Positions 35,291 to 36,880 of a DNA stretch of 64,000 nt are shown here, piece by piece. Both the position numbers and the translations under genes were made by a program. Each line of letters starts with the position of its first letter. Positions within the stretch are counted from its first letter, which is position 1. The notes beneath the pieces were generated by a model. That model was given only the letters and a program-made list of their open reading frames with translations. It searched no databases and had not been told where the DNA came from. This stretch comes from Pichia kudriavzevii (Eukaryota > Ascomycota > Pichiomycetes > Pichiales > Pichiaceae). The stretch covers positions 248,001-312,000 of the forward strand of contig NC_042507.1 of assembly GCF_003054445.1 (NCBI RefSeq), written 5' to 3'.

Positions 35291-35911
35291 TTAGTTTTGT
35301 CCAATAGATAAGATATCAGAGTCACCAGCGTCTAAGATGGATAAGACACCAACTCTGAACAACTTACCACAAGCAGTACCTAATTCGTTGTTACCACCTT
35401 GGAAGTAGTAGACAGCAGTCTTGGATAACATAGCATAGTATTCCAATTCAGACTTTCTCAAGACTGGGGTGTTAGCTGCAATGATGATCATCTTAGCCTT
35501 ACCTTGTCTGATGGACTTGATGGTGGACTTGTAACCTAGTGTATACTTACCAGACTTGATAGCTAAAGCTAACTTAGCGTTCATTAAGTCGGAATTCTTC
35601 TTAGTCTTTGGTGCCTATAACAGATAAGTTTACCGTATTGCATCGTCACAACACTCAAAAATGTTAGTATACACAGTAAAACAGTAAGGTGCATTCAAAA
35701 TATACAATCAAGGCTACCGCAGATAACTGTCCATAGAGTGCTAATATAGGGAAACAACTGTAACATATTCACGATCGGTCATCTCTATAACAGAAAGAGT
35801 GCTTCTTTCAGTATCCAAACGTGTGTCCCTTTCAAGCAACAAATAGGATGCAGTTATCTGCAGTTAGTATAGTTAGAATGCTGGAAATTAAAATAAAAGT
35901 ATACTGACCAT
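35291..35911 (-). CDS. RPL30: 60S ribosomal protein eL30 (RPL30), one intron
   Basis: Exon 1 is just the start codon (35909-35911). Exon 2 is 35291-35614. The intron is 35615-35908 (294 nt). The spliced product has 108 residues: M, then [20 protein letters not shown], then a body nearly identical to yeast Rpl30 ([40 protein letters not shown]). The donor is the non-canonical GTCAGT, as in Saccharomyces RPL30. The branch site TACTAAC is complementary to 35663-35669 and the acceptor is TTATAG. In Saccharomyces, excess L30 binds a kink-turn at the 5' end of its own pre-mRNA and blocks splicing; the same motif is visible here. It is divergent with RPL24, as in Saccharomyces. Confidence 0.95.
35615..35908 (-). 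other. RPL30 intron with a second internal branch site and acceptor
   Basis: GTCAGT donor, TACTAAC (complement of 35663-35669), acceptor TTATAG. A second TACTAAC (complement of 35863-35869) is followed by an internal CTGTTATAG (complement of 35785-35793) identical to the true acceptor context (complement of 35615-35623). Confidence 0.85.
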
Positions 35912-35937
35912 CTCTGTAATTAGTTTATACTCCGGTC
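35906..35937 (-). promoter_or_regulatory. Kink-turn for L30 autoregulation across RPL30 start codon and donor
   Basis: Read on the minus strand. GACC (35934-35937) pairs with GGTC (35906-35909); GTA and TAC close an inner stem; GGA lies opposite AGAGAT as the asymmetric internal loop with the G-A pairs of a kink-turn. The ATG and the first bases of the intron form one strand. The sequence blocks GACCGGAGT and CAGAGATGGTC are those of the Saccharomyces L30 binding site as I remember it. Confidence 0.85.
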
Positions 35938-36415: not shown

Positions 36416-36880
36416 ATGAAGGTCGAAGTTGACTCCTTTTCCGGTGCAAAGATTTACCCAGGTAGAGGTACCCTTTTCGTTAGAGGTGACTCCAAGATTT
36501 TCAGATTCCAATCTTCTAAATCTGCATCTTTATTCCACCAAAGAAAGAACCCAAGAAGAATTGCATGGACTGTTTTATTCAGAAAGCAACACAAGAAGGG
36601 TATTACTGAAGAAGTTGCAAAGAAGAGATCCAGAAAGACCGTCAAGCACCAAAGAGCAATTGTCGGTGCTTCTTTAGACTTGATCAAGGAAAGAAGATCT
36701 TTAAAGCCAGAACAAAGAAAGGCAAAGAGAACCGAAGCTCTTGCAGCTGCAAAGGAAAAGAAGAAGGCTGACAAGGAAAAGAGAAAGGCAGAAAAGGCTA
36801 AGTTAGTTGCTTCTGGTGCAAAGATCTCTAAGCAACAAGCTAAGGGTGCTTTCCAAAAGGTTCAAGCTACCTCCCGTTAA
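36416..36880 (+). CDS. RPL24: 60S ribosomal protein eL24 (RPL24)
   Basis: 154 residues, the same length class as yeast Rpl24 (155). MKVEVDSFSGAKIYPGRGTL, RGDSKIFRFQSSKS and RRIAWTVLFRKQHKKG are diagnostic of the eL24 N-terminal zinc-less domain. A long basic helix follows (about 65-130). No intron is needed. Codons are strongly biased (AGA, TTG, GGT, AAG), as expected for a highly expressed gene. It bridges to the small subunit in the mature ribosome. Confidence 0.97.
   Translation: MKVEVDSFSGAKIYPGRGTLFVRGDSKIFRFQSSKSASLFHQRKNPRRIAWTVLFRKQHKKGITEEVAKKRSRKTVKHQRAIVGASLDLIKERRSLKPEQRKAKRTEALAAAKEKKKADKEKRKAEKAKLVASGAKISKQQAKGAFQKVQATSR

Follow-up and report, generated by a model that had tools for sequence, protein, structure and literature searches.

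The leader, start codon and 5' splice site of the RPL30 gene of Pichia kudriavzevii carry an L30-type kink-turn, and we consider it highly probable that L30 uses this element to control the splicing of its own transcript in this Pichia-type yeast. Splicing autoregulation is supported by a kink-turn with its full grammar in the right place, a U·G pair at position 3b·3n, a GTCAGT donor, an L30 product that keeps F85 and K32, and a single L30 gene. The element lies in a window of 64,000 nucleotides (the whole stretch of DNA that was analysed), and the features of RPL30 discussed below are on its minus strand (Table 1).

Results

An L30-type kink-turn spans the leader, the start codon and the donor of RPL30

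The preliminary description of this DNA had proposed that a kink-turn and a GTCAGT donor are joined here in the manner of the L30 site, which the sequence at positions 35937-35903 bears out. The element, GACCGGAGTATAAACTAATTACAGAGATGGTC, is found exactly where it had been placed (minus strand, 35937-35906). As RNA, it reads GACCG-GA-GUA(9-nt loop)UAC-AGAGA-UGGUC and is made of an outer stem (GACCG/UGGUC), a 2+5 internal loop (GA/AGAGA), an inner stem (GUA/UAC) and a 9-nt loop, so that it runs from the leader through the single codon of exon 1 to positions +1 to +3 of the donor. The stems and the loop are in general as first described, with one correction: a closing G·U pairs, so the outer stem has five pairs, and the internal loop then has the canonical 2+5 layout instead of the 3+6 layout that had resulted from counting this G·U in the loop.

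The kink-turn grammar of the element is complete, with an AGA bulge followed by tandem G·A and A·G pairs and then by U·G (UAC-AGA-GA-UGG versus CCG-GA-GUA). In PMC5061560, a three-base bulge with G·A and A·G is the standard kink-turn form, and U·G at 3b·3n gives the N1 form that is found in the L30e pre-mRNA of S. cerevisiae. The 3b·3n pair of the RPL30 kink-turn is also U·G, which places it in the N1 class, as in the yeast L30e pre-mRNA.

When the 10.79-Mb genome was searched with the pattern ACCGGAG-N(3-33)-AGAGATGG, a single match was obtained, at RPL30. Since the reversed control of this pattern likewise gave one match, its rarity in the genome is no evidence alone; the evidential weight lies in its place, which is the RPL30 leader with the ATG and the donor in register. 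The chance of finding the pattern at a fixed place is about 31 x 4^-15 = 3e-8 by an arithmetic that ignores composition and hindsight. Matches to the pattern in 68 stretches of viral contigs (IMG/VR) were judged to be due to chance, that collection being very large. No Rfam 15 model reached its gathering score in the 64-kb window, and the three matches near RPL30 (E 2.8-6.7) all stayed far short of theirs.

Table 1. Positions of the RPL30 element, splice signals and predicted helices in the window
Feature	Position	Strand	Basis
L30-type kink-turn	35906..35937	-	sequence; MFE of isolated element; kink-turn grammar of PMC5061560
Exon 1, coding part (ATG only)	35909..35911	-	sequence
Non-canonical 5' splice site GTCAGT; GTC within the outer stem of the kink-turn	35903..35908	-	sequence
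Donor +4..+10 AGTATAC, predicted partner of the branch site	35899..35905	-	fold
RPL30 intron, 294 nt, GTCAGT to TTATAG	35615..35908	-	predicted from sequence
Zipper extension, 5' arm GCATTC	35876..35881	-	MFE helix list
Second TACTAAC (BP1, presumed decoy), 5/7 bases mostly paired in the model	35863..35869	-	sequence, fold
14-bp zipper stem, 5' arm ACTGCAGATAACTG	35851..35864	-	sequence, fold
Exact second copy of TCTGTTATAG, presumed to be a decoy 3' splice site	35785..35794	-	sequence
14-bp zipper stem, 3' arm CAGTTATCTGCGGT	35716..35729	-	sequence, fold
Zipper extension, 3' arm GAATGC, 21 nt upstream of BP2	35691..35696	-	MFE helix list
GTATACT of the branch site, predicted partner of donor +4..+10	35666..35672	-	fold
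TACTAAC presumed to be the true branch point (BP2); its branch A lies 49 nt from the 3' splice site	35663..35669	-	sequence
True 3' splice site TCTGTTATAG	35615..35624	-	sequence
RPL30 exon 2, TAA-ended; with the ATG encodes a 108-aa L30	35291..35614	-	Pfam, PDB matches, single copy

The host gene encodes the only L30 of the genome

The gene occupies positions 35911-35291 of the minus strand and consists of an exon 1 whose coding part is the ATG alone, a 294-nt intron and an exon 2. It had been called RPL30, and its product supports this name: it matches the Pfam L7Ae/L30e family (85.8 bits) and, over nearly its full length, L30 chains among solved structures (PDB). In the alignment with the S. 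cerevisiae L30 chain, 82 of 98 residues are identical, and both K32 and F85 are present. F85 is described as an RNA-contact residue of L30 (PMC3706390).

L30 is single-copy, with one match in a whole-genome protein search (10,791,929 bases, 5 contigs); the genome has six L7Ae-family matches, of which the other five are not L30 (unrelated to the RPL30 product in tblastn). No second copy of the RPL30 leader-intron segment was found in the genome, and a protein search of prokaryote genomes, viral contigs and plasmids confirmed no stray yeast L30. RPL24 (36416-36880) is the divergent neighbour of RPL30, and the two genes are side by side in S. cerevisiae as well. Elsewhere in the genome, two L7Ae-family matches with equal scores of 97.8 bits and 161-aa open frames (G000:C2:101779 and G000:C4:171483) are apparently a duplicated pair. 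Another L7Ae-family gene (L005, on G000:C4 near 745150) has a 258-aa open frame, is RPL8-like by size and may have an exon 1 that is only an ATG, a GTAAGT donor and a 622-nt intron with a 14-bp helix (0/40 shuffles); PMC5640933 describes a motif in the introns of L7, L8 and S3 genes.

The preliminary description had also suspected a host outside the Saccharomyces family, which is plausible given that P. kudriavzevii belongs to the Pichiaceae according to PMC6053246, where the genome of P. kudriavzevii CBS573 is given as 10.8 Mb on 5 chromosomes.

The RPL30 intron has an unusual donor and two sets of splice signals

The gene model and the splice junctions given here are those that we infer from the sequence. 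A transcript that retains the intron reads MVSILLF followed by a stop, ending after seven codons, so that no L30 is made from it. Among 7 candidate introns with an exact TACTAAC, taken from the 64-kb window, 200 kb of contig C2 and four short loci of the same genome, four had a GTATGT donor, two had GTAAGT and one, that of RPL30, had GTCAGT; this list comes from the best 40 of 85 groups by a score favouring GTATGT, and some of its rows (two on L004) are maybe not introns. No donor was singled out by the hexamers found upstream of 27 TACTAAC sites, where GTCAGT occurred 3 times (1.9 expected) and the 14 most enriched hexamers did not include GTATGT. No U1 snRNA of this yeast scored over the cut-off of the Rfam yeast U1 model, and a search with a U1 5' end gave 3 matches versus 6 in the reversed control.

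The intron also contains a second TACTAAC and a second, exact copy of TCTGTTATAG, in the same order as the presumed true branch point and 3' splice site. If the second acceptor were used, the reading would be ATG-AGA-TGA. AAG sites lie closer to BP1 than the second TCTGTTATAG does, so the use of BP1 with this copy is a guess. In 20000 shuffled interiors, the TCTGTTATAG 10-mer occurred in 14, TACTAAC in 729 and both together in 0, while a repeat of at least 10 nt of any sequence was seen in 89 of 1000 shuffled introns. A near-copy of TTACAGAGATG, which is TTATAGAGATG at 35790-35780, was set aside as probably a product of chance and of the second 3' splice site; AGAGATG occurs in 383/20000 shuffled interiors.

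The intron is predicted to form a long stem and a helix between donor and branch site

Folding of the intron gave a 14-bp helix that resembles a zipper stem, with pair probabilities of 0.88-1.0 in the model and no helix of equal length in 400 dinucleotide shuffles of the intron. Zipper stems are defined in PMC12350175 by at least 6 bp, a linker of 42-85 nt to the donor and the branch point, and a helix confidence based on DMS. By sequence and fold only, the RPL30 stem has 14 bp versus this minimum of 6 bp, and its linkers to the donor and branch-point sequences sum to 84 nt, or 90 nt when the donor hexamer is counted, which is the upper edge of the 42-85 nt range (PMC12350175). With the 6-bp GCATTC/GAATGC extension, the linker would be 42 nt (48 nt), and the loops between the helices exceed the 5 bulged nucleotides of the definition. 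In this model, the second TACTAAC (35869-35863) is partly paired, and the second TCTGTTATAG (35794-35785) is in the looped-out middle, itself just partly paired. A structure that hides decoys would be a known theme, since PMC12350175 reports an enrichment of cryptic 3' splice sites in stems. Long stems are not general in this genome: four of five other candidate introns had no helix above their shuffles, and one of the five had a 14-bp helix.

The model further pairs donor positions +4 to +10 with the GUAUACU of the true branch site (probability 0.90-0.96). When the kink-turn, which uses positions +1 to +3, was imposed, this donor/branch-site clamp abutted it without a gap and both helices were kept; the clamp formed in the model without the kink-turn as well. 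A clamp as long was found in 6.2% of shuffles (p about 0.06, with donor and branch point fixed and the helix picked after looking), and we treat it as a hypothesis that is marginal against chance. GUCAGUA and UACUAAC are complementary at 6 of 7 positions in any yeast with this donor. If the clamp is true, it would let a donor-bound protein influence the branch site at a distance of 239 nt. It is then conceivable, if rather doubtful, that GUCAGU has been kept through a double use, with GUC closing the kink-turn and AGUAUAC pairing with the GUAUACU of the branch site.

These helices could be parts of a larger intron switch, which would be compatible with L30 autoregulation of splicing: the zipper stem would bring the donor close to the true branch point while hiding the decoys, and L30 would lock the donor/branch-site helix that abuts the kink-turn. 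The length and high pairing probability of the zipper stem, the rarity of the exact 3' splice site copy in shuffled interiors and the compatibility of the adjacent kink-turn and clamp all point in this direction, but the clamp length is reached in 6.2% of shuffles and its formation is indifferent to the kink-turn, exact 10-nt repeats are common enough, the total folding energy of the intron is unexceptional (z -1.5, with 11/200 shuffles as low or lower), and the repeats and helices were chosen after looking. We regard such a switch as unlikely.

The element is only partly kept in the spliced mRNA

Because exon 2 begins with GCA, three outer pairs of the kink-turn (G·U, C-G and C-G) survive splicing by inspection, together with the whole loop. 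This would suit a different reading, in which L30 acts mainly on translation of the spliced mRNA and GTCAGT has been retained passively, as a consequence of preserving the stem, and L30 translational control in yeast is cited in PMC6298567. However, splicing cuts the outer stem from five pairs to three, RNAfold did not return the kink-turn for the spliced 44-nt piece, and the donor bases belong to the complete kink-turn element, which makes a mainly translational role improbable.

The kink-turn is predicted to be weak by itself

For the isolated 32 nt, RNAfold returned exactly the kink-turn structure (-4.0 kcal/mol), and the kink-turn was the minimum free energy (MFE) structure in pieces of 52 and 81 nt too. 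It was not the MFE structure in a 131-nt piece nor in the longest pre-mRNA piece tried. Its pair probabilities were only 0.10-0.23 in pieces of 62 and 91 nt, even where it was the MFE structure, and at most 0.29 in folds ending at 35600. Imposing the kink-turn made pre-mRNA folds worse than the MFE by 3.5-5.4 kcal/mol when they ended at 35560 and by 0.0-4.6 kcal/mol, according to where the start was placed, when they ended at 35600. In these models, the kink-turn is weak by itself. For archaeal L7Ae, a weak kink-turn RNA is described as unstructured until bound (PMC6298567), and a weak kink-turn at RPL30 would likewise fit a switch that needs L30 for its stabilisation. The weak predicted fold is just as consistent with a site that is rarely formed.

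The idea that the site is a relic, kept by slow divergence without feedback in this species, draws on the failure of the kink-turn to be the predicted MFE structure in most longer folds tried, but we find it very improbable when no kink-turn position has been lost and the unusual donor is still there, while the joining loop has changed. That the motif is known from 26 fungal species (PMC5640933) also argues against a relic.

The sequence CATCTCT (35970-35964, minus strand), 26 nt upstream of the element, is perfectly complementary to AGAGATG in the kink-turn, and the two sequences pair in the MFE structure of 36010-35880. It could act as an anti-kink-turn, provided that transcription starts upstream of it.

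Discussion

If the element works as we think most probable, L30 made in excess over new ribosomes would be free to bind the kink-turn formed by the leader, the AUG and the first donor bases of its own transcript, and the RPL30 intron would then not be removed. Transcripts left with the intron would end after the seven codons of MVSILLF and would give no L30. A weaker form of the hairpin may persist in the spliced mRNA and slow its translation.

Such feedback has been described in baker's yeast, where surplus L30 blocks the splicing of its own message via a folded RNA element (PMC6298567; PMC3706390), and precedents for an L30-type element are found in PMC5755908, PMC6298567 and PMC5640933. The last of these describes a fungal 'rpl30 motif' with 47 examples from the 26 species and a conserved purine-rich internal loop, and P. 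kudriavzevii may already be among these species. No paper on the P. kudriavzevii RPL30 element was found among the matches listed for RPL30 splicing, kink-turn and Pichia or Candida RPL30, in a literature from which subscription journals are mostly absent. The element is a good further example of a known switch, not a new kind of switch: it widens the range of a textbook splicing-feedback element, which here still has its unusual donor, to a yeast that probably belongs to the Pichiaceae. The putative clamp beside the kink-turn suggests a specific structure for a step of the splicing feedback that is not yet settled.

The kink-turn of the S. cerevisiae RPL30 (old name RPL32) pre-mRNA is the counterpart of this element in what is probably a different family. 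The S. cerevisiae gene likewise has a GUCAGU donor, a one-codon exon 1 and the same letters in both loop strands, and the loop joining the stems differs. The two elements share their host gene, the U·G at 3b·3n (PMC5061560) and a splice site within the motif (PMC6298567). RPL7B is another autoregulated ribosomal-protein gene whose intron has a zipper stem (PMC12311795); there, the protein-bound structure excludes the zipper, whereas the kink-turn and the zipper of RPL30 can coexist in our model. In archaea, an L7Ae-family protein binds a weak kink-turn in its own leader (PMC6298567), but that kink-turn belongs to a prokaryotic translation switch, which occludes the ribosome binding site.
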